This document shows, one piece after another, positions 3,518 to 47,556 of a DNA stretch of 64,000 bases (position 1 is the stretch's first letter; every line of letters starts with the position of its first letter). Origin of the DNA: Archangium gephyra (GTDB lineage Bacteria; Myxococcota; Myxococcia; Myxococcales; Myxococcaceae); assembly GCF_001027285.1 (NCBI RefSeq), contig NZ_CP011509.1:8952501-9016500 (forward strand), read 5' to 3'. The translations under genes and the position numbers were made by a program. The notes below the pieces were generated by a model that was given only the letters and a program-made list of their open reading frames with translations, was not told the origin of the DNA and made no database searches.

Positions 3518-5200
3518 ATGGGGGCGGGTTGGGCGATGGGGTGGCTGCTCGCGGAGATGCTGACCGCGGCGCCTGAACCTCGAGTGGTCTCCGCGCTGGA
3601 GAAGGTGCGGCCCGGCGTCGAGCTGAAGGGGGAGAAGGAAGCCCGGTTGAGCCTCGCGCGCGGTGAGTGCGAGGCCGTCCAGGTGGTGCTGCCCCCGGGC
3701 AGCGCGCGGCTGAAGGTGAAGCCGCTGGCGCTGCGTGGGCCCGAGGGCAAGACGCTGGAGGCCTCGGTGTGGCGCGAGGCGTACCTGGACGTGAAGACGC
3801 CCTCCAACTCCCAGGGCGGCACGGGGCTGTGGCCGGATCCACTGGTGCCAGTGGAGTCGCCACCCGGGCCGGAGGGAGCGCCCACCGTCCTCTACGTGGA
3901 GCTGTGTGCCCCGGAGTCCCAGGCGCCGGGCACGTACCAGGGCGCGCTGCACGTGGAGGCCGGCGGCAAGGCGCTGGCGCCCATTTCCTTCACAGCGGAG
4001 GTGCAGCCCTTCGTCCTGCCCGCCACCTCCTCGCTGCCCAACAGCTTCGGCATCTCGCTCTACAGCATCTCCAAGGCGCACGGGTTGAAGCCCGAGTCCT
4101 CCGAGGCCCGCGCGCTGCTGCGCGACTACGTGGGCGCGCTGCTGGCCCACCGCGTCACCGCCCATGGCATGAGCATGGAGGCGCCGCCCGTGCGCTTCGA
4201 GGGTGGCAAGGCGGTGGTGGACTTCAGCGCGTACGACGCGGAGATGAGCCCCTTCCTGGAGGGCTCCGCGCTGGACTCGGGGGCCCGCTTCACCACCGCC
4301 GACGTGCGCGACAACAAGTCGGCCCGCACCGACGCGGAGAAGTCCGCGTACTACCGCGCCTTCGCCGAGCACTTCCGCCAGAAGGGCTGGAAGGCCCGCC
4401 TCTTCTTCTACGCCAAGGACGAGCCCAAGCCCGAGGACGTGGCCCTCGTCCGCACCCAGGCCCTGCGCGTGCGCGCGGCGAAACAGGACGTGCCGGTGCT
4501 CGTCACCGCTCCGCTGGATGACGCGCTGCGTGGCTCGGCGGACATCCTCGCCCCCACGCTCAACTGTTTCTTCCCGCGCCCGGGGCCCCAGACGTGCCGC
4601 AACGTCGTCCCGCTCCAGACGCTGCGCGGCAAGCTGGAGCCCCACGTGAAGGTGTGGTGGTACCAGAGCTGCAACTCGCACGGCTGCAACGGCGGGCCCA
4701 CCCCGGACGCCGCCGCCGAGAAGGTCTACAGCGGCTGGGCCTCGTACATGGTGGACCACCCCACCCCGCTCAACCGCGCCATGGGCCCGCTGGCCTTCCT
4801 CTCCGGCGTGGACGGCGAGCTCTATTTCGACACCGTCTTCGCCTACAACACCAAGGACCCCTGGAAGGACGTCTTCGAGTTCGGCGGCAACGGCGACGGC
4901 ACCCTCTTCTACCCGGGCACTCCGGCCCGGCAGGGCTTCTCCCGCCACCAGCCCGTGGTCTCCTTGCGCCTCAAACACATCCGCGACGGGCTCGAGGACT
5001 ACGAGTACCTGCGGCTGCTGGAATCGCTCGGGGAGCAGACATTCGCCCGGGAGGCCGCGCGACGCCTCACCCGCTCGGGCTATGAAGTGGAGACGGATGC
5101 CCGGCAGTGGGAGCAGGTCCGCCGGGAGATGACCCTCCGTCTGAGGAAGCGCTGGGAAGCGTCCGAATATGCGAAGCGTTCGGGCGTCCGTCCCAAGTGA
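3518..5200 (+). CDS. GH123-like glycoside hydrolase (formerly DUF4091)
   Basis: 560 residues. The first ~20 residues (MGAGWAMGWLLAEMLTAAPE) look like a short export signal, followed by a beta-rich N-terminal domain. The C-terminal two thirds fit the DUF4091/GH123 catalytic barrel: an Asp-Glu pair D301-E302 in FFYAKDEPKPED at the place where GH123 enzymes carry their acid and oxazoline-stabilising residues, and the family's end motif with GDGTLFYPGTP and RLKHIRDGLEDYEYL. Characterised GH123 enzymes are exo-beta-N-acetylgalactosaminidases; the substrate here is unknown. It sits between two DUF3108 genes with gaps of 30 and 37 bases, so it is probably co-transcribed with them and may act on an envelope glycan. 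A GGGGGAG precedes the ATG. Confidence 0.72.
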   Translation: MGAGWAMGWLLAEMLTAAPEPRVVSALEKVRPGVELKGEKEARLSLARGECEAVQVVLPPGSARLKVKPLALRGPEGKTLEASVWREAYLDVKTPSNSQGGTGLWPDPLVPVESPPGPEGAPTVLYVELCAPESQAPGTYQGALHVEAGGKALAPISFTAEVQPFVLPATSSLPNSFGISLYSISKAHGLKPESSEARALLRDYVGALLAHRVTAHGMSMEAPPVRFEGGKAVVDFSAYDAEMSPFLEGSALDSGARFTTADVRDNKSARTDAEKSAYYRAFAEHFRQKGWKARLFFYAKDEPKPEDVALVRTQALRVRAAKQDVPVLVTAPLDDALRGSADILAPTLNCFFPRPGPQTCRNVVPLQTLRGKLEPHVKVWWYQSCNSHGCNGGPTPDAAAEKVYSGWASYMVDHPTPLNRAMGPLAFLSGVDGELYFDTVFAYNTKDPWKDVFEFGGNGDGTLFYPGTPARQGFSRHQPVVSLRLKHIRDGLEDYEYLRLLESLGEQTFAREAARRLTRSGYEVETDARQWEQVRREMTLRLRKRWEASEYAKRSGVRPK

Positions 5201-5237
5201 ATTGGAGACTTCTCACCTGGAATCAAGGATGACCGCC

Positions 5238-6128
5238 ATGCGCACCGCCCTCGCAGCCCTCCTGTTCAGCTTCTCCTCCGCTGCCTGGGCGCAGCTGCCC
5301 GACGCGGAGGGGCCCGAGGACACCAAGGCCCCCGCTGCTCCGGCCCAGCAGGCTCCGGCCGCTCCCACCCCCGTGCCCGCCTGCGCCCAGCGCCTGCCCA
5401 CCCTGCGCACCCCGCTGGCCTTCGCTCCGGGCGAGGAGCTCGAGTTCGACCTCGACGCCATGGGCGCCACCGCCGGCAAGATGATCATGTCGGTGCAGAA
5501 GAAGCAGGACGGCTCGCTGCCGGTGCAGATCAAGGTCCAGACCAACTCCTTCTTCTCCAAGGTGCGCCGGGTGAACGCCACCGCGATGAGCTACATGCAC
5601 CCGAAGACGCTGCGGCCCTCGCGCTACACCGAGGAGGCCACGGAGAACGAGCAGCACCGCACCGTGGACGTGGCCTTCAACTCCAAGGACCGCAGCGTCC
5701 GCATCGACTACGTCGTCAAGGGCAAGCCGGGCCGCAGCAACTACTCCTACGAGCACGAGGGCATGGACGTGGCCGGCGCCATCTACATGCTGCGCCAGCT
5801 GCCCCTCAAGGAGGGCCTGCCCGTGTGCTTCGACGTCTACGGCGTGCGCCGCATGTGGCGCATGACGGGCACCGTGGTGAAGCGCGAGCACGTGTCGCTG
5901 CCGCTCGGCGAGTTCGACGCCTGGCACCTGGAGGGCACCGCCGTGCGCCTGGACAACCCCAAGATGAAGCGCGAGGTGCACGTGTGGATCACCGACGACG
6001 AGCGCCGGTTGCCGCTCGCGGCCGTGGGCACCATCGACCTGGGTGCCGTGCGCGCCACCCTCACCTCGTACTCCCGCCCGGGCGAGAAGGCGAAGCAGGC
6101 CCAGGGCAAGGAGCAGCTCAAGTGGTAG
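5238..6128 (+). CDS. Exported DUF3108 protein, second of two in the operon
   Basis: 296 residues. A clear signal peptide (MRTALAALLFSFSSAAWA, cleavage likely after residue 18) is followed by an Ala/Pro-rich linker and then a DUF3108-like domain beginning FAPGEELEFDLDAMGATAGKM and ending with WITDDERRLPLAAVGTIDLGAVRATLTSY. The order of elements and the closing strand match the protein at 2678-3487, so the two are probably diverged paralogues around the glycosidase. ATG 5238 is preferred because AAGGA lies 8 bases upstream; ATG 5229, in the same frame, overlaps that site. The last 11 bases overlap the end of the convergent gene at 6118-6486. Confidence 0.75.
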   Translation: MRTALAALLFSFSSAAWAQLPDAEGPEDTKAPAAPAQQAPAAPTPVPACAQRLPTLRTPLAFAPGEELEFDLDAMGATAGKMIMSVQKKQDGSLPVQIKVQTNSFFSKVRRVNATAMSYMHPKTLRPSRYTEEATENEQHRTVDVAFNSKDRSVRIDYVVKGKPGRSNYSYEHEGMDVAGAIYMLRQLPLKEGLPVCFDVYGVRRMWRMTGTVVKREHVSLPLGEFDAWHLEGTAVRLDNPKMKREVHVWITDDERRLPLAAVGTIDLGAVRATLTSYSRPGEKAKQAQGKEQLKW

Positions 6129-34930: not shown

Positions 34931-35851
34931 ATGCTCGGCGATATGCCAACCGCTCTCTGTTTTCTAGCGCTCGCTTCCCTGGTCGCCTCCTCTCCCGTCC
35001 CGTCCGAGGCCCTCCCCCCGGCGGCCCGGCAGGTTTCGGACGCCCCCACGGTCCAGGCGCTCGACTTCAACTGGACGCGTGAGGGAGTCATCACCGGCGT
35101 CGCCGGGGTGCTGTGGATCAGCAGCGAGGCCATCTTCAAGAAGGACCTCTCCCCGAAGACCTGCCGGTGGTGCGACCGCACGGTGGATGGCACGGACACC
35201 CTCAACGCGGTGGACCGGTGGGGCCGGGGCGTGGCGGCGGACACGCTCGAGGGCCGTGAGCGCTGGGACCTGTGGAGCAACATCGGGGGCTTCGGCGTGC
35301 TCCCGGTGGGCGTGCTCGGGGCGCAGTACCTGCTGGGCTCGGGCAGCGGCGCGCCGCTGCAGTATTACGCGCAGGACGCCGCCATCATCATCGAGACGAC
35401 GGCGGTGGCCGCGTTGGTGAACCAGGTGGTGAAGTTCTCGGTGGGCCGCGAGCGTCCCTTCGTCCACGCGCTGCCCGAGGACCAGAAGGGCCTCACCAAG
35501 CACCCCACCGACAACAACCTGTCCTTCTACAGTGGGCACACCAACATGGCCTTCGCGCTCGTCACGGCGGCGGGTACGGTGTCCGAGCTGCGCGGCTACA
35601 AGAACCGCTGGCTCATCTGGGCGGTGGGTCTGCCGGCGGCGGCGTCGATCGGCCTGCTGCGCATGGGCGCGGACCGGCACTACCTCACGGACGTACTGGT
35701 GGGCGCCGCTGCGGGCACCGTCTTCGGCGTGGGCATGCCCCTGCTGCTCCACGGCCGCCAGGAGGAGTCGCAGGCGCGGACTCGAGCCGCGCGCATGTCG
35801 ATGAACGTGTCCGGCGGCCTCGGCGGCGTGATGTTCTCCGGGCAGTTCTGA
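34931..35851 (+). CDS. PAP2-family membrane phosphatase
   Basis: 306 residues. An N-terminal signal or first membrane helix is followed by a polytopic region with the three PAP2 motifs: KFSVGRERP (KxxxxxxRP), FYSGHTN (the PSGH-type motif, with Tyr before SGH), and RMGADRHYLTD (RxxxxxHxxxD) supplying the nucleophilic His and Asp. Such enzymes dephosphorylate phosphatidic acid, undecaprenyl diphosphate or similar lipids on the periplasmic face. Start ATG 34931 follows a G-run; ATG 34943 in frame is the alternative. The last 18 codons plus stop are duplicated exactly 1.3 kb downstream (37107-37165), bounding an insert. Confidence 0.88.
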   Translation: MLGDMPTALCFLALASLVASSPVPSEALPPAARQVSDAPTVQALDFNWTREGVITGVAGVLWISSEAIFKKDLSPKTCRWCDRTVDGTDTLNAVDRWGRGVAADTLEGRERWDLWSNIGGFGVLPVGVLGAQYLLGSGSGAPLQYYAQDAAIIIETTAVAALVNQVVKFSVGRERPFVHALPEDQKGLTKHPTDNNLSFYSGHTNMAFALVTAAGTVSELRGYKNRWLIWAVGLPAAASIGLLRMGADRHYLTDVLVGAAAGTVFGVGMPLLLHGRQEESQARTRAARMSMNVSGGLGGVMFSGQF

Positions 35852-35852
35852 G
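35794..35852 (+). repeat. 59-bp perfect direct repeat, left copy (3' end of the PAP2 gene)
   Basis: Starts CATGTCGATGAACG and ends CAGTTCTGAG, including the PAP2 stop codon. Identical at all 59 positions to 37107-37165; the bases just outside differ on both sides. The two copies enclose 35853-37106. Confidence 0.95.
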
Positions 35853-35957: not shown

Positions 35958-36434
35958 ATGCACATTCGGCCACCACTCACTGCACGAGTGGTCCTGCTGT
36001 GGCTGGCGGCATTTGTCTCCTGCCAGCTTGCATGTGTCGGCGGCCATATCTCGCCGTCCATGTTCCAGTTCACCAACGTCGTGCCCTATACCGGTCCGGA
36101 AGGAGGGGGGTGGAAGGTCGCCCAGGTACTCATCCTGCTGGGCAAGATTTCCCCCATGTTCTCGTCAGCCGCCACTTGCGACATCGAGGTGGGCGTTCCG
36201 GAAAAGTATGGGGAGGTGTGGGTGACGAATGAGTTCGCACAAGTAGAGGCCGCCAAGGCGGCAGACCATGCCGCACGTCGTGTCCTGCGAGAGCACCAGC
36301 CGACTGCACTGGCCTGCATCAAGTTCAGGGAACACATGCAAAGCATCCTGAGGGACAGAGTGTCCGGCCCCATTCCCGGTGCAACTGTCACCAGATTTCG
36401 AACGTCAGGTATCTCGCCAATGACGTTTCCGTGA
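35958..36434 (+). CDS. Exported or lipoprotein-like hypothetical in the repeat-bounded insert
   Basis: 158 residues, not recognised. It has an excellent ribosome site (GGGAGG, four bases, ATG). Residues 1-~24 are a signal sequence (basic start, core VVLLWLAAFVS) with cysteines at positions 22 and 26; FVSC or QLAC could act as a lipobox, each imperfectly. The rest contains two more cysteines (ATCDIEVGV, LACIKF) and an Ala/Glu-rich helix (EFAQVEAAKAADHAARRVLREHQ). DNA around it is visibly less GC-rich than the neighbours. With the next gene it forms a small two-gene unit. A secreted toxin-like or binding role is only a guess. Confidence 0.6.
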   Translation: MHIRPPLTARVVLLWLAAFVSCQLACVGGHISPSMFQFTNVVPYTGPEGGGWKVAQVLILLGKISPMFSSAATCDIEVGVPEKYGEVWVTNEFAQVEAAKAADHAARRVLREHQPTALACIKFREHMQSILRDRVSGPIPGATVTRFRTSGISPMTFP

Positions 36435-36516: not shown

Positions 36517-37098
36517 ATGAATCCGGAACTGACAGCCGATGCGCTCGTTCAACTCGTTCACCGTTACCACCCGGCTGGCCTTCTCAACGGGGATCCCCGC
36601 TACGATGAGTCGGAGGAAGGTCAGCGTCTCACCGCGCTGGTCCACGCCCATGTGGCACCTTCACCGGAATGGAAGGGCTTCATCCAGCAGCTTCATGAAC
36701 AGTTCCCCAACTGCCATCTCTGGGACACAACCGTGCCCTGGCATGACCCTTGTTACAGCATTCGGGTATCCCTCCCAGGATTCGTGTCAGGGGGGCCCCG
36801 TGACGACTGCATCGTCGCTCTGCTGAGCCAGCTCGCTCCGGTGTATGCCATCTATGCCTCCCACACGGACAAGAGCTTGCCTGGAGCGGACTATTGGCTC
36901 CGCTTTCCCCCCTTCCCCCCTGAATTCCAAGCGCACGAGGCCAAGCTCGCCGGACTCATCGAGTCCACCTTCGGCTTCACCCGTCTGACCAACGACATCC
37001 TCCTCACCCCCGTGCCGGACCTTGTCCCGCGCACGGCCAATCATGAGCTCGGCAGGGCACAGCTCATCGATTGCCTCTTCACCTGGAACCGCTGGTAG
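36517..37098 (+). CDS. Soluble hypothetical in the repeat-bounded insert
   Basis: 193 residues, not recognised. It has no signal sequence or membrane segment; Trp/Tyr/Pro-rich globular sequence (LLNGDPRYDESEEGQRLTAL, WDTTVPWHDPCYSIRVSLPG, YWLRFPPFPPEF) ending in LFTWNRW. Size, acidity and position after a secreted protein resemble immunity proteins of bacterial polymorphic-toxin modules, but no family can be named. The ribosome site is weak (GGTGGA 10 bases upstream). Its stop lies 8 bases before the right copy of the 59-bp repeat. Confidence 0.6.
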   Translation: MNPELTADALVQLVHRYHPAGLLNGDPRYDESEEGQRLTALVHAHVAPSPEWKGFIQQLHEQFPNCHLWDTTVPWHDPCYSIRVSLPGFVSGGPRDDCIVALLSQLAPVYAIYASHTDKSLPGADYWLRFPPFPPEFQAHEAKLAGLIESTFGFTRLTNDILLTPVPDLVPRTANHELGRAQLIDCLFTWNRW

Positions 37099-37106
37099 CG
37101 AGCGAA

Positions 37107-37165
37107 CATGTCGATGAACGTGTCCGGCGGCCTCGGCGGCGTGATGTTCTCCGGGCAGTTCTGAG
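37107..37165 (+). repeat. 59-bp perfect direct repeat, right copy
   Basis: Exact copy of 35794-35852, the PAP2 3' end, here without any reading frame attached. It lies between the insert's second gene and the lipid cassette. Confidence 0.95.
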
Positions 37166-37268: not shown

Positions 37269-38279
37269 ATGAGGGCAGCGGAGCAGGCGAGCCCGCGCGG
37301 AAACGTGATGCTCCCCGTTCGCATCCTGGGCACGGCCAGCGTACTCCCGGGGCGTGCGGTGACCACGGCGGAGCTGGCGCGAGAAGTCGGGCGCGAGCCC
37401 GAAACGATCGAACAGAAGACGGGGATTCGCACCCGCTACTGGGCTCCCCCCGGCACCCTCATGGCCGACCTGGGCGCCCAGGCCCTCCGCCTCGCCCTGG
37501 AGCAGGCCGGGTTGGCCGCGACCGAGCTACGCCGCATCCTCTTCGTCTCCTCGTCCGGCGGAGACACACTCGTGCCCGCCACCGCGAACCGGGTCGCCGC
37601 CGCGCTCGGGCTGTCCGGCTCGTGTGACGCGTTCGATCTCAACAACGCCTGCATGGGCTTCCTGTCCGCCTTCGATGTCGCCGCACGCTCGGTGGCCACC
37701 GGGCTGGGTCCCGTCGGCATCGTCACGGTGGAGTACAACTCGAGGGCCCTCTCCCCTTCCGAGCCACGCCCCTATCTCATCTTCGGAGACGTGGCGGCGG
37801 CCGCGGTGCTGGCGCCCGGAACCCGGCCCGGCGAGGGCGTGCTCGCGGCGGCGTTCGGGAACGATGGCAGCCACCCTCCTGACACGGTGCTCGAGCATCC
37901 CCTGCGCACCGGGCGCTTGGAGGGCGTCCGGTTCCACACCCCCTCCCGCGACATGCTCCGCGTCGTCTTCGAGGCCCTCGACCGGGCCACCTCCCGGGTC
38001 CTGGAGCACGCGGGCATACCGCTCGGCGACATCCAGTGGGTGCTTCCACACCAGCCCAACGGCACCATGCTCCGCGACATCATCGAGCGCTATGCCATCG
38101 AGCCCGCGAGGCTCGTCCCGGTGGTGGAGGAGATCGGCAGCGTGGCGGCGGCCTCCATCCCCTTCAGCCTCGATCGGCTCCTGCGCACCCGTCCCGTGCG
38201 CCCGGGGGACCGGATCCTCATGCTCGGCGTGGGAGCGGGAGTCTCCTACGGCGCCATCCTCTACCAGGTGGGTGGATGA
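37269..38279 (+). CDS. KAS III-like 3-oxoacyl synthase (FabH family)
   Basis: 336 residues. FabH-type thiolase fold: catalytic C128 in FDLNNACMGFLSAF, H261 in LPHQPNGTML, and C-terminal GAGVSYGAILYQ. In E. coli FabH the triad is Cys112-His244-Asn274; here the residue 30 after the His, in EEIGSVAAASIP, is S291 rather than Asn, so the GNTSAAS motif is altered. The protein may condense unusual acyl thioesters or act as an acyl transferase or beta-lactone/thiolase-like enzyme. Start ATG 37269 follows GGAGGAG. Its stop overlaps the next ATG (ATGA). First gene of a three-gene coupled lipid cassette. Confidence 0.88.
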   Translation: MRAAEQASPRGNVMLPVRILGTASVLPGRAVTTAELAREVGREPETIEQKTGIRTRYWAPPGTLMADLGAQALRLALEQAGLAATELRRILFVSSSGGDTLVPATANRVAAALGLSGSCDAFDLNNACMGFLSAFDVAARSVATGLGPVGIVTVEYNSRALSPSEPRPYLIFGDVAAAAVLAPGTRPGEGVLAAAFGNDGSHPPDTVLEHPLRTGRLEGVRFHTPSRDMLRVVFEALDRATSRVLEHAGIPLGDIQWVLPHQPNGTMLRDIIERYAIEPARLVPVVEEIGSVAAASIPFSLDRLLRTRPVRPGDRILMLGVGAGVSYGAILYQVGG

Positions 38280-39028
38280 GCCGCGAGGGGAGCATCCCGC
38301 GGACGGCCTGGCTGGCCACCTTCGGGTTGCTGCGCAGGTACCACCGCTACCAGGTCCTCGGCCTGGAGACCCTGCTCGAGCCGGGCGCACGGCTCATCGT
38401 CGCCTACCACGGGCGGCCCCTGGCGCTCGATCAGTGCATGCTCACCACCGTCCTCCACGAGCGGCTGGGCTACCTGCCCCATGGCATCATCCACGAAGCC
38501 TTCGACCGGCATCCGGCGCTGCGCTGGCTCAAGGAGGGCCTCGGCTTCGTCACACGGGATGGGCCGGAGCTGGCGGCGGCGGTGGCGCGCGGCGAGCACA
38601 TCCTCGTCCAGCCCGGTGGCACGCGCGAGGGCTGCCGGAGCTTCCGTCACCGCTACCGCGTGGAGTGGGGCGAGCGGCTGGGCTACCTGCGCCTCGCCAT
38701 CCGCTACCGCCTGCCCATCGTCCCCGTCGCCGGGCATGGGATGGATGATGCCTTCATCGGGCTCAATGATGGATACCAGCTCGGCCGCCGGCTCGGCGCG
38801 CCCTGGGGATTGCCGGTCTGGCTGGGGCTCGGCGCCACCGGGCCCTGGCCCCTCTCGCTCCCCCTGCCGGTACGGATGACCCAGTGGGTGGGCCAGCCCA
38901 TCCACCGGCACCTCGATGGGCGGATCGACCCCGATGATCGCCCGGCGCTGATGGAGCTGCATCGGGAGGTGGGCGGAGCGGTCCAGTCCCTGCTCGACCG
39001 CGCACGCGCGAGCGGAGGTGACGCATGA
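38276..39028 (+). CDS. Lysophospholipid/DAG acyltransferase-like protein
   Basis: 250 residues. The first motif AYHGRPLALDQ places H45 and D52 in an H-x6-D arrangement rather than HxxxxD. The second block LVQPGGTREGCRSF is the PGGxRE signature of DGAT2/MGAT-like LPLATs, followed by LAIRYRLPIVPVAGHG. Members transfer acyl groups to glycerol-, sugar- or alcohol-type acceptors at the membrane. There is no obvious membrane helix except a weak hydrophobic segment near residues 165-190. Start and stop each overlap the neighbours by four bases, so it is translated together with the synthase and the SDR. Confidence 0.78.
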   Translation: MSREGSIPRTAWLATFGLLRRYHRYQVLGLETLLEPGARLIVAYHGRPLALDQCMLTTVLHERLGYLPHGIIHEAFDRHPALRWLKEGLGFVTRDGPELAAAVARGEHILVQPGGTREGCRSFRHRYRVEWGERLGYLRLAIRYRLPIVPVAGHGMDDAFIGLNDGYQLGRRLGAPWGLPVWLGLGATGPWPLSLPLPVRMTQWVGQPIHRHLDGRIDPDDRPALMELHREVGGAVQSLLDRARASGGDA

Positions 39029-39840
39029 GTCAGGAGCAGTGGGCCGTCATCCTGGGCGCCTCGTCGGGCACGGGCGCCGCCATCGCCCACCAGGTGGCGA
39101 GGCAACCCGGGCTGCACGTCTTCGGCATGCACCGGGGCCGCTACCCCGAACAAGCCGCGGAGGTGGAGCGCCAGGTGCTCGCCACCGGCAGGCGCATGGT
39201 GATGATCCGCGCGGACGCCGGCACGCCCGAGGGCGCGGCGCAAGGAGCCGAGACCCTGCTCGCCACCGCGGGGCCGCGCTCCATCAAGCTCTTCGTCCAC
39301 TCGCTCGCCAGTGGCTCGGTGGGGCGCTTCGTCTCCAACGAGGACGACCGGCTCCACCCCCGCCAGCTCGCGCGCACCTTCGAGGCCATGGCCCACTCCT
39401 TCGTCTACTGGGCCCAGGCCCTGGTGGATCGGGAGCTCCTCGCGCCCTCGGCCCGGCTGCTGGGACTCACCAACCCGCTCACCGAATCCCTGCTGCACAA
39501 CTGTGGCGCCATCACCGCGGCCAAGGCCGCGCTGGAGATCTACGTGCGCCATCTGGCCCTGGAGCTCGGCCCCCTGGGGCACCGGGTGAATCTGCTCAAG
39601 TTCGGCACGGTGATGACCCCCGCCATCCGCCACGTCTATGCCCCGGACGTCCTGGCCCGGCTGGAGGAGGCCCACCGCCAGATGAACCCGGCCGGACGGA
39701 TGTGCACCCTCGAGGAGGTGGCCCGCTTCGTCTCCACGCTCGTGGGGGACGAGACGGAGTGGTTCAACGGAGCCACCATCGACTTCACCGGCGGAATGAC
39801 GCTGCGTCTCCTGGACCTCCTGCTCAACGAGCGCCGGTGA
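39025..39840 (+). CDS. SDR oxidoreductase related to FabI-type enoyl-ACP reductases
   Basis: 271 residues. Rossmann start VILGASSGTGAAIAHQVA, then VHSLASGSVGRF near the cofactor nicotinamide, AAKAALE with K167, and the PxxT-like region FGTVMTPAIRH. The general-acid Tyr is missing: K167-4 is Ile163 and K167-7 (the FabI Tyr position) is Cys160. So it is either an unusual reductase or a non-catalytic or differently acting paralogue. The end NGATIDFTGGMTLR matches the SDR C-terminal 'ITGQ..vDGG' region. Last gene of the cassette; its tail overlaps the convergent methyltransferase by 17 bases. Confidence 0.78.
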   Translation: MSQEQWAVILGASSGTGAAIAHQVARQPGLHVFGMHRGRYPEQAAEVERQVLATGRRMVMIRADAGTPEGAAQGAETLLATAGPRSIKLFVHSLASGSVGRFVSNEDDRLHPRQLARTFEAMAHSFVYWAQALVDRELLAPSARLLGLTNPLTESLLHNCGAITAAKAALEIYVRHLALELGPLGHRVNLLKFGTVMTPAIRHVYAPDVLARLEEAHRQMNPAGRMCTLEEVARFVSTLVGDETEWFNGATIDFTGGMTLRLLDLLLNERR

Positions 39841-40705
39841 CGAGTGCCTCCGGCGGCATCCGGAAGGAGAGGCAGAAGTAGAAGCGGCTGAGCTGCTCCT
39901 CTCGGATGTCCACCGCCCCCGCGGGCAGCAGCTCCCGCGGGCAGTGAGGCTCGCGCGTGTAGAAGGTGAGCAGCCGGAAGGCCACCCTGTCCCGAAGGGA
40001 GCGCGCCTCCGCGTCGAGCTGCTCGTCCACCACCACCAGGGGAGTTCCAGGACAGGCCACCCGCGCCATCTCCCCGAGCGCGCGTCCCGGATTCCGGTAG
40101 CCGTTGATGCCACCGATCTCGAACACCCGGTCGAAGGTGTGGTCCGCGAACGGCAAGGCATGGGCATCCGCCACGAGCAGGCGCACACCCCGAGGGCCCT
40201 CCCGCTCCAGGCGCTCGCGGCAACACCCCAACATGCCCGTGCTGAGATCCACCCCCCACACCTCCACGTCGAGCCCGGGCGACAGGGCCCGGGCGAGGAG
40301 CGGAAGATTGGCGCCGGCACCGATCCCCACCTCCAGGATGCGCGGGGGCCGTCCCCCGGGCCGTGGCACCAGGGTGTCCAGCTCGAACCGGGACACGTAA
40401 CGCTCGCGAAGCTCCGCCTCCGAGTGGCCCTGCAACAGGGGCGTCAGCAGGGTGGTGAGCGGATCATGCAGAGAGGGCAGCCCGTCGTAGAGGGCGCGCA
40501 GGAGGCGATCCGTCCCACGAACCTCCCGCTCCCGGAACAGCCGGGGCAGGCCCTCCACCACCGGCCAACGGGCGCCACACTCCGAGCAGGACAGCCCGCC
40601 CTCCTCGAGCAGCCCTCCGCGCGCCCTCCCCTCCCACGCGAGCTTTCCCCGGCAGGAGGGACAGGCCAGCACCTCGACGTCCTCCACCGGCACCGTGCAC
40701 ATCAT
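39824..40705 (-). CDS. Methyltransferase with N-terminal Trm112-like zinc domain
   Basis: 293 residues. Residues ~10-57 form a zinc-ribbon of the Trm112 type (LACPSCRGKLAWEG... LSCSECGARWPVVEGLPRLF). The remaining part is a class I methyltransferase: motif I ILEVGIGAGANLPLL, VWGVDLSTGML, DAHALPFADHTFDRVFEIGG, and a UbiE/Coq5-like substrate cap. Such zinc-fused methyltransferases often act on quinones, lipids or tRNA partners. Its ATG overlaps the stop of the kinase gene (ATGA), so it is translated with it. It converges with the SDR gene. Confidence 0.85.
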   Translation of the reverse strand: MMCTVPVEDVEVLACPSCRGKLAWEGRARGGLLEEGGLSCSECGARWPVVEGLPRLFREREVRGTDRLLRALYDGLPSLHDPLTTLLTPLLQGHSEAELRERYVSRFELDTLVPRPGGRPPRILEVGIGAGANLPLLARALSPGLDVEVWGVDLSTGMLGCCRERLEREGPRGVRLLVADAHALPFADHTFDRVFEIGGINGYRNPGRALGEMARVACPGTPLVVVDEQLDAEARSLRDRVAFRLLTFYTREPHCPRELLPAGAVDIREEQLSRFYFCLSFRMPPEALVTGAR

Positions 40706-43700
40706 CGGACCAGCTCGGCCTCGGCCCGTGCCAGGTCATCGGCGGCCTCGAGCTCCGCGAAGAGTGCCCGCGCCCGCATCAAGTGGGTGTACCGGGCAGA
40801 AGCCCCGAGGGGAAGGTGGCGCCCCAGCTCGAAGTGACCACGGCCTTCCTCGTAGGGCATCTCCAGCTCCACGGCACGCTGGACGCAGCGCTCCCAGGCG
40901 CGGTGCGCGGCCGCGGGCCGTCCGGAGAGCCAGGCCTCGAGCCCGTTGCACAGCAGGGCGAACGGCTGGCCGAACGCGAAGGCACGGGCGAACGCACTCA
41001 TGGCCTTGCAGGCCTCATGCGCCGCACGCACCAGCTCCTTTTCGCCTGGTGGAGTCCCCCCGCCCCGCCGCTCCCAGACCGTCAGGTAGACCTCGGCCAC
41101 CTGGCTCACCCCGGTGTGCAGCCAGTACGCCACCGGCCGCATGCCCCTCAGCAGGAGCAGGCCCCGCCGCGCCACCTCGAGGGCCCGGGCCTCCTGGCCC
41201 CTCCGCAGCAGCGCCAGGGCCAGCACCCCCTGCATCACCACCTGCTCCGAGACACCGGTGTGGGCCTCCATCAGCTCCACGTCCAGTGCCTGGAGCGACT
41301 CCTCGGAGCGGCCCAGGCGGACCAGGGCACCCGCCCGGCCCAACGCGCCCCAGAGCCGCGTCTGCATGGAGCCCCGCCGCCGCGCGGAGGCCTCCAGCTC
41401 GTCCGCCAGTTGGATGCAGCGCCGGAAACGCCCCTGGTACTGCGCGGCCATCGACATCACCACGCGGCTCTCCTCCGACTGCCGGAAGTCCCGGGCCTCA
41501 TCCGCGAGCCGCCGGGCCCGCTCCACCCACCCCTCCACCGACTCCCACCGCGCCAACCCGAGCCCGCAGACGGCGCTGCGGACCAGGGTGAAGGCGACGT
41601 CCGCGGGAGTCCCCACGCGCTCGGCCATCCGCATCGCGCACGTACACCAGGACTCCACCATCGGACGCAGCACGGGCAAGCTGCTCAACACCACCGCCAT
41701 GATGATGGAACCCCTCGCCAGGCATTTCGACGGGCCATTGGGCTCCAGCACGTTGAGCGTCCGGAAACCCGACCACAGCAGGTGGTCCGGCTCCTGGAGG
41801 TAGATGAAGATCTCGCACATCCGCACCATCAACTTCCCCGCCTCGGCGCGCGTGCGCCGCTCCTCGCTCGACTTCACCGCGAACGCCCAGGGGAAGGCGG
41901 ACTGGAGGAGCCATTCGAACACCTGGAGGGGCAACCCCAGCCGCCAGCCCCGCTGGCTCCGGGGAAGCGGCCAGCCCAGGTGCCGCAGGGCGCGCTCGGC
42001 ATGGACGCGGCATTGCCTCAGGTCCCCGACGAGGAACCAGGTCTCCGCCAACTTCGCCTCGAGCTGACCCAGCCGAAGAGCTCCCACCTCTCTGGATTCG
42101 GCGAAGGCGAGCGCTCGCTGGAAGTACGGGATGGCCACCCCACAGGCATACACGGACATGGCCTGCTCACCCGCCAGCTCCGCGTAGTGCGCCTCGCGAG
42201 TCTCGTCACCCGCCTGTCCCCAATGGTGCGCGAGCGCGGCCACCCACTCCGCCTCGTCCCGGTGCACCTGGCTGATCACCTCGGCGGCCTTGCGGTGCAG
42301 GGCCCGCGTGAGGGCCGGGGAGAGGCTGTCCACCAGACCCTCCCGCAGCTTGTCATGGGCGAAGCGCCAGCGGTTCCCCGTCACCTCGAGCACCGCGGCG
42401 TCGGAGCACGCGCCCAGCCAGGCCGGCAGCTCCACCGACGGCTCGGCCGCACGCAACAGCTCCTCGTGGATGTCCCGTCCGATGATGGCCGCCAGCCGGA
42501 GCAGCTCGCGCGCGCCAGGTGGAACCTTTCCGAGCCGCCGCTGGACGATGGAGCGCATCCCGCCGACGAAGGCCTTGTCGGGCAGGGGCTCGTGGCCGAT
42601 GCGGTTCAACCTCCCGCTCTGCTCCGCCAGGGCGCGGATCACCTCGACGAGGAAGAAGGGGTTGCCCTCCGTCTCCCGCTCGAGCAGGGAGAGCACGCGC
42701 GGCGACTGTCCCCCCGGTCCCACCATGGACTCACTCAGCGCGGCGATCTCCCCGGGCGTGAGCCGCGGCAGCTTCAGCACCTGAAGTGAAGGCAGCTCCC
42801 GGGGCAACGTGGGCCGCTCGTCATCCCGGTAGCTGGCCAGCAGCAGCAGCCGCGCCTTCGAGGCCGAGCTGGCGACCCGGGACAGCAACGACAGCGTGGC
42901 ACTGTCCGCCCACTGGAGATCCTCCAGGAGGACCACCGTGGGCTGGAGCTGCCGGCCGAGGACCTCCTCCACCGTGGCGAGCAGCCGCTGATGGGCCTCT
43001 TCCGCGCCGAGCGGCTCGGGCTCCGGAATGTCGCGCCGGAGCAGCGCGCCGATGTCCGGGACGAGCGGCTTGAAGATGCTGGCCTCCCGCGCCTCGAGGG
43101 GACAGAGGAGGGCCAGTTGCCGCAGCACTTCCCGCCAGGGCTGATAGGGATTGCCACCCCTGTCGATGGCCTGCCCGCGCAGGACGAATGCGCCCCGGAC
43201 CAGCGCCAGGATGCGGAACTCGGCCAGCAAGCGCGACTTGCCCACGCCACTCTCTCCGGCCACCAGCCACGCACTGCCCCGGTGCTCCCCCTCCGCCAGG
43301 TCGAGCGCCTGTCCCAACCGCGCCAGCTCGTGCTGCCGTCCGATGAATCGCGCCGCTTGAAGGAAACTCTCCCGGGTAGCGACCGTCTCCACCGGCAGGG
43401 GCTGCCCCACCGCTTCCCGGAGCGCGGCAATCGCCTCCTCGGCGCTCTGGAAACGGTCCCGCGGTGCGAACGCCAGCAGCTTGCGGAGGAACCTGGCCAA
43501 CTGCGGCTCGAGCCCCTCGACACCTTCCGAATCCTGGTGGGCCGTCATCTCGAGCGCCTCCTGGAGCTCCTGCGTGGGGGATTGGGCGGCGAACCAGGCG
43601 AGGTCCAACTCGAGACTCCCTCCCGCCCCTCCACCGTGGCGCCCGCGCGGCGCGTCCGGATGCCTTCCCACGAAGAGCTCATGGGCAATCACCCCGACGG

Positions 43701-44301
43701 CATAGAGATCCGACAGCTCGGAGGGAGCCTCGCCCTGGAGGAGCTCCGGAGCGAGGTAGCCATGGGTTCCCGAGCGCAACGCGCGGGCCCGCTGCTCCGG
43801 GCCGATCGCCAGTCCGAAGTCGAGCAGCTTGACCTGTCCCTCGGCCACCAGGACATTGGCGGGCTTCAGGTCCCGGTGGATGATTCCACGCCGGTGCAGG
43901 TAGAGCAGCGCCTGGAGCATCTGGTGGAGCAACTCCGCCTGCACCTTCCGGGGCTGCTCCCATCCCGCTTCGGTGAGGGTCTGGGCCCCGTCGAGGAACT
44001 CCAGCACCAGATAGGGCCGCTGCTGCCCATCGAAGCCATAGTCCAGCACACTGATGATGTTCGGATGCCGCAACGAGGCGAGGATCTCGAACTCGCGCGC
44101 CAGTTGCAGGGAGCGCCTGTACGGACCCGGGTGGAGCTGTTTGAGGGCCACCAGACCGCCGAGCCGATCTCTCGCCAGATAGACGGCTCCGAACCCGCCG
44201 TGCCCCAGGCTCATGAGCAGCCGGTACCGGTTGCCTACTTCACGGGACCTGGGAATGGATGCAAGGCCCGGTGAATCCAACGACGCGGCATGTCCAGCCA
44301 T
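40702..44301 (-). CDS. Ser/Thr protein kinase fused to AAA ATPase and TPR-like region
   Basis: 1199 residues. Hanks-type kinase at residues ~25-295: glycine loop GHGGFGAV (33-40), K54 in VALK, HRDLKPAN with D144, DFGLA at 161-165 and the APE helix. Then an AAA16/STAND ATPase with GESGVGKS (349-356), the LLEDLQWAD Walker B and DDERP. From ~740 on, about 450 residues of degenerate helical repeats (TPR-like, many AL..A..A). This is the PknK-like 'kinase-ATPase' layout common in myxobacteria; no LuxR, GAF or histidine kinase end is present. Start ATG 44301 follows GGAGGAGGG. Probably signals through phosphorylation in the cytoplasm. The coupled methyltransferase follows. Confidence 0.9.
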   Translation of the reverse strand: MAGHAASLDSPGLASIPRSREVGNRYRLLMSLGHGGFGAVYLARDRLGGLVALKQLHPGPYRRSLQLAREFEILASLRHPNIISVLDYGFDGQQRPYLVLEFLDGAQTLTEAGWEQPRKVQAELLHQMLQALLYLHRRGIIHRDLKPANVLVAEGQVKLLDFGLAIGPEQRARALRSGTHGYLAPELLQGEAPSELSDLYAVGVIAHELFVGRHPDAPRGRHGGGAGGSLELDLAWFAAQSPTQELQEALEMTAHQDSEGVEGLEPQLARFLRKLLAFAPRDRFQSAEEAIAALREAVGQPLPVETVATRESFLQAARFIGRQHELARLGQALDLAEGEHRGSAWLVAGESGVGKSRLLAEFRILALVRGAFVLRGQAIDRGGNPYQPWREVLRQLALLCPLEAREASIFKPLVPDIGALLRRDIPEPEPLGAEEAHQRLLATVEEVLGRQLQPTVVLLEDLQWADSATLSLLSRVASSASKARLLLLASYRDDERPTLPRELPSLQVLKLPRLTPGEIAALSESMVGPGGQSPRVLSLLERETEGNPFFLVEVIRALAEQSGRLNRIGHEPLPDKAFVGGMRSIVQRRLGKVPPGARELLRLAAIIGRDIHEELLRAAEPSVELPAWLGACSDAAVLEVTGNRWRFAHDKLREGLVDSLSPALTRALHRKAAEVISQVHRDEAEWVAALAHHWGQAGDETREAHYAELAGEQAMSVYACGVAIPYFQRALAFAESREVGALRLGQLEAKLAETWFLVGDLRQCRVHAERALRHLGWPLPRSQRGWRLGLPLQVFEWLLQSAFPWAFAVKSSEERRTRAEAGKLMVRMCEIFIYLQEPDHLLWSGFRTLNVLEPNGPSKCLARGSIIMAVVLSSLPVLRPMVESWCTCAMRMAERVGTPADVAFTLVRSAVCGLGLARWESVEGWVERARRLADEARDFRQSEESRVVMSMAAQYQGRFRRCIQLADELEASARRRGSMQTRLWGALGRAGALVRLGRSEESLQALDVELMEAHTGVSEQVVMQGVLALALLRRGQEARALEVARRGLLLLRGMRPVAYWLHTGVSQVAEVYLTVWERRGGGTPPGEKELVRAAHEACKAMSAFARAFAFGQPFALLCNGLEAWLSGRPAAAHRAWERCVQRAVELEMPYEEGRGHFELGRHLPLGASARYTHLMRARALFAELEAADDLARAEAELVR

Positions 44302-44466
44302 CACACTCGTCCCTCCTCCCCAGGACCCTCTCTGCATAATGGACGGGGAATGGGCTCGATTCCTGCCGGGTCCGCCAGGCTGAAAGGCATCCCTGCGTCC
44401 AGCGCCCTGCGCGCGTCCGAGGAGGCGGTAGCACTCACAAAAAGCGATCTCGTGTCCCTCCGTATG

Positions 44467-44477
44467 TAAGGAGGTGA
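44467..44477 (+). promoter_or_regulatory. Full-length Shine-Dalgarno sequence before the patatin gene
   Basis: TAAGGAGGTGA, the complete 11-base complement of the 16S anti-Shine-Dalgarno, four bases before ATG 44482. It fixes the start and predicts high initiation. Confidence 0.85.
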
Positions 44478-44481
44478 CTTG

Positions 44482-46389
44482 ATGAATCAGCCTCGCTTCA
44501 CCCGAGCACGTCGCCCATCTCGAGAGACACTCCACACGACGAACGTGAGTGAGTCGCTGCTCTCCCATGCGAAGACGCTGGCCGCGCTGAATCATTCTGA
44601 TCTGTCAGGTCTCGGCCCCTCGTTGTTGCTGCAACTGCTGCGCTCGAGCCAGACCCGGCACCACGGGCCAGGAGAACGGCTCTGCGCGGCGGGGGAGCCG
44701 CTCTCCGGGTTCTGGGTGGTCCTGGATGGGCTGCTCGAGCTGCGGTCCCGTGCCGGCACGGGGATCGCCACGTTGGGAAGAAGCTCCGTCTTCGGGGTGG
44801 AGGAGTGCCTCGAGGGGACCCCGGCGACCATGGCGCTGCATGGCGGAGCGCCAGATGGGGCGCAGGTGCTCTTCGTCAGGGGTCAGGACGTCCAGCACCT
44901 GATCGCGCAATCCCTCCCGCGGTGTGCCTTCATGGGGGAGCGCCTCCAGGTGGCCCTGTCCGAGCATCCCGAGCAGTTCGATGTGCTCCGGCTGGCCGGC
45001 CCGAGAGGGATGAACCTCCCGGCCCTGACGGAGCTGCTGGCGAATACCATCGTCTCCGATTTCCGCGACAGGGTGCTGCTCGTGAGAAAGGGCACCCGCC
45101 GGGGTCTCATGCCCTGCGGGAACACGCACTCCTGTCTGATGCACGCCTGGATGGTGGATGAGCACCTCCCCTTCGACCCTGGCGATTTCGACTACATCTT
45201 CGCCGACGAGGACGCCGCCCGGCTCCTCGCGCGCCATCCAGCGGCCCACCTCCACACCGTCCAACTCACCCGCGAGCTGCCACGGCCCGAGCGGGACCAG
45301 GGACAGGACACCCTCATCACCCTGTTGATGCCCATGTCCCAGCGCCCCCTGCACGCGGGACTGGAGGGCGCCTTCAGCCCGGAAGAGCTGCAGTTGCATC
45401 AGCGCGGCTGCTGGCTCCAGCTTCCGGACGAGCTGCTCCGGGCAGGCCCCCTCCATCCAGACGAGCTCGAGGGCTCGCAGCGGGAAGAGCTCTCCCGGTG
45501 GGCGCGAGCGGTCACCCACCGCCGGGTGGGCCTTGGCCTGAGCGGAGGAGGCGCCTGGGGCTTCTACCACTACGTCGTCCTCGAGGAGCTGACGCGCAGG
45601 AAGGTGCCCATCGACATCATCACCGGCAGCAGCATCGGCTCGGTGCTGGGGGCGTATTACAGCGTGCTCGGAGTGAACGGGCTGGAGCTCTTCCGGGAGC
45701 GCTGCACGCAAGGGCAGATCAGCATGCTCGTGCTGCTCAACATCCTCACCACCCTGCCCATCGAATACCTGCTCGAGAAGGATCTGGGCCTGGTCCAGCT
45801 GGACCAGCTGCCGGTGCGGCTGCACCCGGTGGCCACGGACATCACCTCCGGCAAGGCCATGGCCTTCACCCGGGGACGGGTGTCCCTGGCGGTCCGCGCC
45901 AGCAGCTCCGCGCCCGGCCTGTGGGGCCCCACCCTCCTGCCGCCGCGGCACTTCGTGGACGGCGGCACCGCGGACAACCTGCCCGCCCTGTGGCTCCCGT
46001 ACTTCGGAGCGGACCTGACCTTCTCCTGCAACTGCTACCCGGCCCAGATCCGCCCCTACCGGCAGCTCATTCCCGGCCCCATCGGCCGCTTCTTCAAGGA
46101 GCTCAATCCCATGGGCCGCTGGCAGGATCTGCTCTCCAGCGGCAGCCAGATGCTGCATGCGAACGGAGGCCTCGGGGCCAGGATGAGCACCTGCGCCTAC
46201 CAGATCTCTCCCCACGAATCGTCCCCGCTCCGGGCCACCGAGTTCCTCAGACCGGATGAGTTCATCCAGCAGGCCCGGAAGGACGAGGCCCTGCTCGCGA
46301 GGCTCGAGGAGTTCGCGGCGCATTGGGAGGCACTTCGCGGCACCCATGGACAGGTCCGCGGGCTCGAGGCCCGGCCCGCGATTTCTTGA
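44482..46389 (+). CDS. Patatin-like phospholipase with N-terminal Crp-fold domain
   Basis: 635 residues. Residues ~35-165 form a cyclic-nucleotide-binding (Crp-type) beta barrel (GERLCAAGEPLSGFWVVLDGLLELR), lacking a clear phosphate-binding Arg/Ser cassette. Residues ~180-330 link to a catalytic patatin domain: oxyanion hole GLGLSGGGAWGFYH, nucleophile S384 in GSSIG, and D493 in VDGGTADNLP. This layout resembles NTE/RssA-type lysophospholipases. It hydrolyses acyl esters at the membrane; the regulatory ligand is unknown. It is preceded by an unusually strong ribosome site and followed by the gene at 46409. Confidence 0.88.
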   Translation: MNQPRFTRARRPSRETLHTTNVSESLLSHAKTLAALNHSDLSGLGPSLLLQLLRSSQTRHHGPGERLCAAGEPLSGFWVVLDGLLELRSRAGTGIATLGRSSVFGVEECLEGTPATMALHGGAPDGAQVLFVRGQDVQHLIAQSLPRCAFMGERLQVALSEHPEQFDVLRLAGPRGMNLPALTELLANTIVSDFRDRVLLVRKGTRRGLMPCGNTHSCLMHAWMVDEHLPFDPGDFDYIFADEDAARLLARHPAAHLHTVQLTRELPRPERDQGQDTLITLLMPMSQRPLHAGLEGAFSPEELQLHQRGCWLQLPDELLRAGPLHPDELEGSQREELSRWARAVTHRRVGLGLSGGGAWGFYHYVVLEELTRRKVPIDIITGSSIGSVLGAYYSVLGVNGLELFRERCTQGQISMLVLLNILTTLPIEYLLEKDLGLVQLDQLPVRLHPVATDITSGKAMAFTRGRVSLAVRASSSAPGLWGPTLLPPRHFVDGGTADNLPALWLPYFGADLTFSCNCYPAQIRPYRQLIPGPIGRFFKELNPMGRWQDLLSSGSQMLHANGGLGARMSTCAYQISPHESSPLRATEFLRPDEFIQQARKDEALLARLEEFAAHWEALRGTHGQVRGLEARPAIS

Positions 46390-46408
46390 GAACAACGACA
46401 AGGAGCTT

Positions 46409-46930
46409 ATGGCCCCGCGACACCGTGAAGACACATCCCTCGAGACCATCCTCGGCGACGAGGAGCTCCAGAAGCTCCGCCAGGACTTCCAGGAGCAGGA
46501 GCTGCTGGACAGCACCCGCGCGGGAATCGGGCGGAAGCTGCCGGACGCGGCGGGGTTCCTCGCGACCCTCGAGGAGCAGTTCTACCAGCGGGCCTCGCAC
46601 CAGACCCCCGAGCAGTACAGGGAGTTCGCCCGCCAACGCGAAGCCCAGCTCATCACCCTCTTCCTGGTCTACTCCCGGGGCCAGGGCTTCTTCCTGAGCG
46701 TCCACTTCTACTGGGGCCTGATGATGGGCCTGAGCCCCCCGGAAGTCGTCAAACAGCTCCTGCTCGTGGGCATGTACGGGGGCATCCACGTCCTCAATGC
46801 CGGGCAGATGACCCTGGAGCGCACGCTCCTCTATTTGAAGCGCAGGGTGGAGGAGAGGAAGACCACCACGCTGGAGATCCTGGGGGGCATCACCACGGTG
46901 AGCCCCGAGCCGCTGGCGCCGGCCGGTTAG
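46409..46930 (+). CDS. CMD/AhpD-like helical protein, operon partner of the patatin
   Basis: 173 residues. The C-terminal half reads like the carboxymuconolactone decarboxylase fold (AQLITLFLVYSRGQGF..HFYWGLMMGLSPPEVVKQLLLVGMYGGIHVLNAGQMTLERTL), matching the helix order and the GLSPxEV turn of that family. The CxxC peroxidase motif of AhpD is absent, so a non-redox or scaffold role is likelier; identification is tentative. It starts 19 bases after the patatin stop with AAGGAG before ATG 46409. Its stop overlaps the convergent sigma factor by four bases. Confidence 0.55.
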   Translation: MAPRHREDTSLETILGDEELQKLRQDFQEQELLDSTRAGIGRKLPDAAGFLATLEEQFYQRASHQTPEQYREFARQREAQLITLFLVYSRGQGFFLSVHFYWGLMMGLSPPEVVKQLLLVGMYGGIHVLNAGQMTLERTLLYLKRRVEERKTTTLEILGGITTVSPEPLAPAG

Positions 46931-47556
46931 GAGACGGGGGGATGGGAAGAGGAGAACAGCTCCGCTTCCAGGGCGAGCTCCCGGAGGCGCTCCTTGATGC
47001 GCTGGAATTGCTGACGCAGGACAGCGGCCCTGCGGTTGACCGCCCCGGGCGTCCGCTCCTCGTCCGAAGTGGCCATCGCCCGCGCCACGTCGGACCAGGA
47101 CATGCGGCGATCCACCCGGAGCATCAGGATGGTCTGCTCATGCGGGGTGAGCTGCTCGCGCAGCGCCCGGAAGCGGGCCTTGACCGTGGTCTGCAGCCAG
47201 GGGCTCGTCTGGCTCCGCTCGGGTTGCACTTCATCGTGGAAGGCCCCGTGGCTCACCGGCAGCTCCCTGGCGGCCGCCGCGTGGGCCAGGCGATAGCCCA
47301 CGTGCCTCGCCACCTGGTAGGCCCACGTCCTGAAGGAGCACTCCCAGCGGAAGTCTGGGAGGTCGAGCAGCAGGCGTTCACTGAAGATGCCGTAGGCATC
47401 CCTCGCCAGCTCCCGGTCGTGCAGGATCGAGCCGAGCAGCCGCAGGAACTCCGGCCCGTAGCCTTCCAGGGCAATCCGGACGGCCTGCTCGATGTCTCCG
47501 CGCAGGCAGCGCTCCTGAATCCGCTGCTCCAACGCCTGACGTTCGCTCGATTCCAT
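46927..47556 (-). CDS. RNA polymerase ECF-type sigma factor
   Basis: 209 residues. Sigma region 2 is recognisable (AYGIFSERLLLDLPDFRWECSFRTWAYQVARHVGYRLA, with the Trp/Ala-rich core helix for -10 recognition). Region 4 follows (ALREQLTPHEQTILMLRVDRRMSWSDVARAMATSDEERTPGAVNRRAAVLRQQFQRIKERL, the helix-turn-helix for the -35). No domain extension. No anti-sigma gene is adjacent, so control may run through the nearby response regulator or the sigma factor may be released by another route. ATG 47556 follows GGAGGGGAGG. Divergent from the response regulator gene. Confidence 0.85.
   Translation of the reverse strand: MESSERQALEQRIQERCLRGDIEQAVRIALEGYGPEFLRLLGSILHDRELARDAYGIFSERLLLDLPDFRWECSFRTWAYQVARHVGYRLAHAAAARELPVSHGAFHDEVQPERSQTSPWLQTTVKARFRALREQLTPHEQTILMLRVDRRMSWSDVARAMATSDEERTPGAVNRRAAVLRQQFQRIKERLRELALEAELFSSSHPPVS

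Follow-up and report, generated by a model that had tools for sequence, protein, structure and literature searches.

The cassette and its three genes

We analysed a window of 64,000 nucleotides of Archangium gephyra DNA (contig NZ_CP011509.1, positions 8,952,501 to 9,016,500; all positions below are those of the window), whose genome of 12.49 Mb is a single contig. Our subject is a cassette of three genes at 37269–39840, which an earlier note on this DNA had described as lipid genes coding, in two cases, for non-canonical enzymes. They encode a protein (KS) resembling β-ketoacyl-acyl carrier protein (ACP) synthase III (KAS III), an acyltransferase (AT) of the lysophospholipid acyltransferase (LPLAT) and monoacylglycerol acyltransferase (MGAT) type, and a FabL/FabI-like short-chain dehydrogenase/reductase (SDR):

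37269–38279, forward strand: KS, 336 amino acids (aa), with Pfam domains PF08541 and PF08545 above cut-off and alignments to FabH sequences of the PDB
37650–37652, 38049–38051 and 38139–38141: codons of the KS catalytic Cys, the catalytic His and the Ser that replaces Asn
38276–39028, forward strand: AT, 250 aa, with the motifs HGRPxAxD (His codon 38408–38410) and PGGTRE
39025–39840, forward strand: SDR, 271 aa, with PF13561 (adh_short_C2) above cut-off; the nearest PDB sequence is Bacillus subtilis FabL (3oic)
39472–39474, 39502–39504 and 39523–39525: codons of SDR Asn150 at the Ser site, Cys160 at the Tyr site and the retained Lys167

The open reading frames (ORFs) and the ATGA overlaps that the earlier note reported can be read directly off the sequence, at 38276–38279 for KS/AT and at 39025–39028 for AT/SDR. 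In 22 stretches, drawn from 20 genomes, automatic gene calling places a 4-base overlap in 15 of the 17 with adjoining KS and AT, and in 15 of the 17 with adjoining AT and SDR. Counts of gene groups per stretch are lower bounds throughout, because the caller overlooked the SDR of locus L113, which the SDR search found there. The ATG of KS at 37269 has GGAGGAG 5 bases upstream, and the homologues of genomes G006, G002 and G032 match KS from residue 1. The remaining homologues align only from residue 2–13 on, so an alternative start at 37305–37308 is possible. A scan for promoters and terminators upstream of KS detected nothing.

Distribution and linkage of the trio

The host's family was searched in 96 genomes and the phylum in 195. 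Presence was called at E 1e-60 for KS and 1e-40 for SDR; the limit for AT was set at a gap in its match list, which runs to 2e-47 over the first 58 places and resumes at 8e-26. At these limits KS, AT and SDR are all present in the same 57 of the 96 family genomes, and none of them is found in the other 39, most of which hold weaker AT-like matches (at E ≤ 0.001 these occur in 93 of the 96 genomes, most holding 2–7, the cassette AT included). The co-occurrence that the earlier note proposed to check is borne out, and further conserved neighbours came to light with it (see below). Trio genomes account for all members of genera g5 (16/16), g19 (27/27), g7 (7/7), g4 (2/2) and g8 (1/1), for 3/6 of g1, the window's own genus, for 1/4 of g6 and for 0/33 in all other genera. 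KS and AT adjoin (same strand, less than 1,000 nt apart) in 56 of the 57 genomes and AT and SDR (less than 200 nt) in 42, a linkage far beyond chance.

All three genes are under purifying selection: the ratio of nonsynonymous to synonymous substitution rates (dN/dS) is 0.10–0.22 against two relatives and 0.10–0.16 in one relative pair (three comparisons per gene), and on the former range we rejected the possibility that the genes are decaying. Normal fatty-acid synthesis was rejected as well, as was a role for the SDR as enoyl reductase of the main pathway: 39 of the 96 genomes lack the trio, and the genome has FabH- and FabI-like genes at other places. The latter include a plsX-fabH-fabD-fabG-acpP-fabF-like cluster, named by eye from the translation starts, and a further FabI-like protein with Tyr-X6-Lys, which scores 198.9 bits against a model cut-off of 337, below which all controls also fell. 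As a conserved unit, the trio stands apart from canonical fatty-acid synthesis.

Among the 195 phylum genomes the set occurs in one further genome, G111, from another Myxococcota family. Here KS, AT, SDR and a small protein resembling carboxymuconolactone decarboxylase (CMD) are accompanied by a converging methyltransferase (MT), with identities to the best match among our loci of 46% (KS), 57% (AT), 54% (SDR), 31% (CMD) and 54% (MT). At the limits used, the phylum search otherwise returned AT alone in G105, AT and SDR on separate contigs in G164, and SDR alone in G157 and G122. An AT search of genome contigs gave one locus, in Corallococcus sicarius (L098), on which we take genus g5 for Corallococcus; g19 is probably Myxococcus/Pyxidicoccus. 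Of 72,556 plasmid records, 7 hold LPLATs of 27–33% identity in a search made with AT.

Four genomes carry second copies of the cassette, and two of these stretches (L107 and L116) show KS, kinase, MT and SDR without AT. The second copies L098, L107 and L116, from g5 and g19 genomes, have a different gene order, KS > kinase > MT < SDR, with AT also present in L098. Separately, three g5 loci (L112, L113 and L139) carry a gene for a protein of 755–762 aa and small related ORFs 3' of AT, at the place where other genera carry the SDR.

Catalytic residues

Residue counts refer to distinct sequences from 118 loci that cover part of the 57 genomes, with repeats removed (65 SDR rows became 50). Rows shorter than 85% of the query or below 45% identity were dropped, which took out KS fragments of G020 and of contig C83 of G023 and an AT fragment of G020. 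Papers are cited by their PubMed Central numbers, from the portions available of each.

KS carries PF08545 (48.6 bits) and PF08541 (84.9 bits), and its best PDB matches are FabH and BioZ-type 3-oxopimeloyl synthases; it scores below the curated FabH-type cut-offs of NCBIfam (PRK09352, 190 against 249 bits; TIGR00747, 173 against 292). The Cys-His-Asn triad is incomplete: Cys116, His249 and Ser279 (numbered from the 37305 start; add 12 for that at 37269) are each invariant in 48/48 distinct sequences, and the Ser occupies a position held by Asn in three PDB KAS III sequences and in L147, a FabH-like paralogue from this genome. The KS of G111 also has Ser there. Since malonyl decarboxylation by FabH involves the His and the Asn (PMC4807248, PMC7645780), acyl loading by KS can be intact without the normal second half of the reaction. 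One KS-group member is present per stretch in 21 of the 22 stretches, and a scan of other neighbours in the window found no second KAS III domain, although a very divergent partner elsewhere is possible. A KAS III-like paralogue of the same genome (L148, G000:C1:1005000-1014000, KS at 4259–5254) has Tyr rather than Asn at the third catalytic position and adjoins what appears by eye to be an AMP-ligase gene.

The SDR keeps the Gly-rich loop and the catalytic Lys of FabL and FabI, and has lost both Ser and Tyr. Lys167 is present in 50/50 distinct sequences; the Tyr position, 7 residues before it, holds Thr in 45, Cys in 4 and Gly in 1. At the Ser position, which we take from FabG and FabI numbering to lie 17 residues before Lys, Asn is found in 50/50. 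FabL also has a Ser 18 residues before Lys, where the cassette SDR has Gln (34) or Thr (16). The SDR of G111 has Ala at the Tyr position and Asn at the Ser position. Because the three stand-alone relatives found, in G157, G122 and G164, keep both Ser and Tyr, it was most likely in the lineage of the cassette that these residues were lost.

The window AT scores 18.7 bits against a cut-off of 23 for PF01553 and thus falls below it; across 13 members of its family, PF01553 matches at E ≤ 0.01 in 12 and PF03982 (DAGAT) in 8. The His, Asp, Gly and Glu of its motifs are kept in 47/47 sequences, so that the catalytic His-Asp pair and the PGGxRE-type motif are both in place; a paralogue, L146, has identical His-X6-Asp spacing. 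A PDB sequence search with AT gave no credible match. Judged by sequence, KS and SDR are non-canonical, in agreement with the two non-canonical enzymes of the earlier note, and AT is canonical.

The wider neighbourhood

Downstream of the trio, the window holds the following genes:

39824–40705, reverse strand: MT with an N-terminal Trm112p-like zinc ribbon (Pfam), converging on SDR with a 17-nt tail overlap
40702–44595, reverse strand: Ser/Thr kinase with an AAA_16 ATPase domain (Pfam), overlapping the MT start by 4 bases
44545–46389, forward strand: cyclic-nucleotide-binding domain and patatin-like phospholipase (Pfam, on the ORF from 44479)
46346–46930, forward strand: small CMD-like protein, from alignment to CMD-like proteins that adjoin KS or SDR in other loci
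46930–47556, reverse strand: extracytoplasmic function (ECF)-type sigma factor, with Sigma70_r2 just above cut-off, adjoining the CMD-like gene

The cassette is not an isolated trio, and in this respect the earlier note's picture of three genes, sound as to the unit itself, falls short: MT, kinase-ATPase, a patatin relative and, in some stretches, an efflux pump belong to its neighbourhood. At E ≤ 1e-40, MT was detected in 54 of the 57 genomes with the trio and in 0 of the 39 others; its distance from SDR is below 100 nt in 38 of the 54 and below 20 kb in 52. A homologue of the kinase-ATPase, which is probably regulatory for the locus, occurs in 18 of the 22 stretches, and a relative of the cyclic-nucleotide-binding patatin in 19; in the window the kinase gene separates the cassette from the genes for patatin and the CMD-like protein. 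The pump is of the resistance-nodulation-division (RND) type: in 8 of the 22 stretches (genera g4, g5 and g19) genes for a membrane fusion protein, the RND protein and patatin are contiguous with KS-AT, joined in 7 of the 8 by an outer membrane factor, and in 6 of the 8 patatin and KS overlap by 4 bases. Three further stretches with a pump occur among the other loci. CMD-like proteins are found in 6/22 stretches; PF02627 is above cut-off in the member from G111, below it in that from L105 and absent in the window protein. ECF-type sigma factors appear in 4/22 stretches and are possible regulators of the locus. The earlier note's statement that no ACP, dehydratase or conventional fatty-acid gene is adjacent holds for the neighbours scanned between 34931 and 47556, which include no other fab gene either.

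Upstream of the cassette, an exact repeat of 59 bases (64 bases at 97%) at 35794–35852 and 37107–37165 corresponds to the 3' end of a PAP2 gene (34931–35851), recurring after the orphan ORFs 35958–36434 and 36517–37098. The pattern looks as if an insertion had landed at the gene end and restored PAP2. In G002 (L101/L138) PAP2 and KS are separated by a larger insertion, which encodes a protein that by eye resembles the product of the 36517 ORF, and the region beside the cassette may for that reason be an insertion hot spot.

A putative lipid-assembly module and its alternatives

Our tentative interpretation, which we place a little short of an even chance, is that the cassette is a module for lipid assembly, conserved in myxobacteria with large genomes, whose enzymes come from type II fatty-acid synthesis and have been repurposed. 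KS would load an acyl chain from acyl-coenzyme A (CoA) or acyl-ACP onto its Cys. By analogy with known enzymes that lack the decarboxylation Asn, it would then most likely pass the chain to a non-malonyl acceptor, either a β-keto acid, as in PqsBC, or a hydroxyl or amine, as in CerJ-type enzymes. AT probably adds a second acyl chain, onto a hydroxyl, with patatin as a candidate for supplying or trimming acyl chains. The Lys-only SDR, again by analogy, probably carries out an NAD(P)-dependent reaction of a non-standard kind, either reduction or displacement, that proceeds without the Tyr acid. From the neighbours, MT would perhaps cap the product by methylation, the co-directional RND pump of the g4, g5 and g19 relatives would export it, and the kinase-ATPase probably controls the locus. 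We infer that an unusual lipid is made from existing acyl chains. The observation in the earlier note is confirmed and proves stronger than it was there. Its interpretation is partly supported: it pointed the right way but took the unit to be smaller than it is.

Several observations weigh against this interpretation. SDR lies apart from KS-AT in 15 of the 57 genomes (14 g5 genomes, at 2.6–7.4 kb, and G020, on different contigs), and in G002 a distance of 2.8 Mb separates AT-SDR from KS and its companions MT, kinase and patatin; the earlier note's idea that the three proteins are made in step is plausible in the window, but it is not universal. MT is missing from 3 of the 57 trio genomes; the RND pump is lacking in the window locus, in the stretches of g1, g6, g7 and g8 and in those second copies that were viewed. 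The patatins of different arrangement types are only 29–38% identical and may for that reason have been recruited separately, more than once. The G111 assembly consists of 590 contigs with 6% contamination, which makes the owner of its set less sure than its sequence. AlphaFold models from two-row alignments (predicted local distance difference test scores of 38 for AT and 52 for SDR) are too poor for active-site geometry. Finally, the residues lost from the SDR could mean inactivity (a pseudo-enzyme), especially as its Tyr position is not fixed.

A bolder version of the assembly-module reading, possible but in our view doubtful, is that the locus makes an undescribed myxobacterial lipid class (a signal, toxin or envelope lipid), in which a non-malonyl KS acts with a Ser/Tyr-less SDR that has a new NAD(P) reaction, the product being methylated and, in many species, pumped out. 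The earlier note knew of no described pathway with this trio; in the open-access literature, seen in part and with subscription papers not covered, we found no paper describing the gene set. That a condensing enzyme and a reductase of fatty-acid type have both lost decisive residues makes it possible to test for new lipid enzymology concretely and cheaply.

The alternative that survives best, although we think it unlikely, takes the SDR, and perhaps KS, for a non-catalytic NAD(P)-binding partner that scaffolds or regulates KS or AT, as PqsB supports PqsC. An SDR that has lost Ser and Tyr, tolerates Thr, Cys, Gly and, in G111, Ala at the Tyr position and retains the Gly-rich loop and Lys would suit such a role, and PqsB, which lacks all three FabH catalytic residues, is still part of an enzyme (PMC4807248). 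Against this stand the dN/dS of the SDR, 0.14 and 0.10 against the two relatives, and the invariant Asn at its Ser site: strong purifying selection together with an invariant new residue suggests a working active site.

Less likely again is a specialised set of ordinary chemistry, in which KS would extend a particular primer by means of malonyl-ACP, in the manner of BioZ-type enzymes, with the SDR as a variant reductase and AT loading the chain on a lipid. The KAS III domains, the retained Cys and His and the presence of BioZ-type synthases among the best PDB matches are consistent with it. However, BioZ keeps Cys-His-Asn (PMC7645780) and FabL uses Asn-Ser-Tyr-X6-Lys (PMC9260719), whereas the cassette KS has Ser for Asn without exception and its SDR lacks Ser and Tyr.

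We consider it improbable that the cassette is the missing acyltransferase/phospholipase route from membrane phospholipid to triacylglycerol (TAG) in myxobacterial development, with patatin freeing acyl chains and the AT, of MGAT/diacylglycerol acyltransferase (DGAT) type, esterifying them: the frequency of patatin relatives, the DAGAT matches of 8 of the 13 AT members and the persistence of TAG in Myxococcus xanthus after deletion of the single annotated DGAT (PMC4048283, 2014) speak for it, but TAG needs no KS, SDR or MT, other LPLAT paralogues exist (most family genomes having several AT-like matches), the patatin types are poorly alike, and the M. xanthus locus was not identified by name, its place near the efflux gene MXAN_7238 being a guess from relative genome position. 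Because the enzymes that make TAG from phospholipid in M. xanthus are described as unknown (PMC4048283), the AT-patatin pair is worth testing there, as candidates for how Myxococcus makes TAG in development.

Comparison with known systems

The assembly-module reading can be set beside several described systems. FabH and its relatives BioZ and PqsD have the KAS III domains and the Cys and His in common with the cassette KS, which differs from them in the Ser that replaces the decarboxylation Asn and in the lack of a fab gene among the neighbours scanned. Identity with BioZ was rejected, since BioZ keeps the Asn (PMC7645780). A DarB/StlD dialkylresorcinol cluster was rejected on scores of 31.9 against 450 bits for PRK06816 and 17 against 550 for DarB. 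OleABCD olefin clusters are defined by OleB hydrolase and OleC ligase neighbours; the scan of neighbours in the window found neither, the groups that recur beside the cassette are of different kinds, and this identity too was rejected.

AT has the His-X6-Asp and PGGxRE-type motifs in common with bacterial LPLAT and MGAT-DGAT-like acyltransferases and, in the window, differs from them in falling below the Pfam cut-off. The SDR has Lys and the Gly-rich loop in common with the enoyl-ACP reductases FabL and FabI, B. subtilis FabL being its nearest PDB sequence, but it has Asn in place of the catalytic Ser and Thr, Cys or Gly in place of the Tyr.

At the level of whole loci, a 2025 survey lists five conserved myxobacterial biosynthetic gene clusters, for geosmin, carotenoid, VEPE/AEPE/TG-1, alkylpyrone and myxochelin (PMC12766979). 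The cassette resembles them in its wide conservation among myxobacteria, and none of the five, in the portion of the survey available, is described with its gene set. The survey took antiSMASH regions as its starting point, and a locus of this kind may go unflagged there. Although co-inherited in 57 of 96 family genomes and found with its order intact in a distant genome of the Myxococcota, the set lies outside these five clusters.

Other likenesses are in the way the enzymes work. PqsBC is a KAS III enzyme without the Asn that retains Cys and His and uses a non-malonyl partner: PqsC has Val299 for the Asn and condenses octanoyl-CoA with 2-aminobenzoylacetate, and its malonyl-CoA turnover is only 0.0005 per second (PMC4807248). 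It differs in having Val at this position and an inactive KS partner, PqsB; beside the cassette KS no second KS was found. The KAS III-like acyltransferases CerJ and ChlB3 put the KAS III Cys to use in acyl transfer, CerJ moving a malonyl unit to a sugar, but they carry Cys-His-Asp and serve antibiotic pathways (PMC9573744). For the SDR, eugenol synthase provides a precedent in function: this plant enzyme, from another SDR subfamily, lacks the Tyr, depends on Lys (Lys132Ala is inactive) and carries out a hydride reduction that displaces acetate (PMC1991597).

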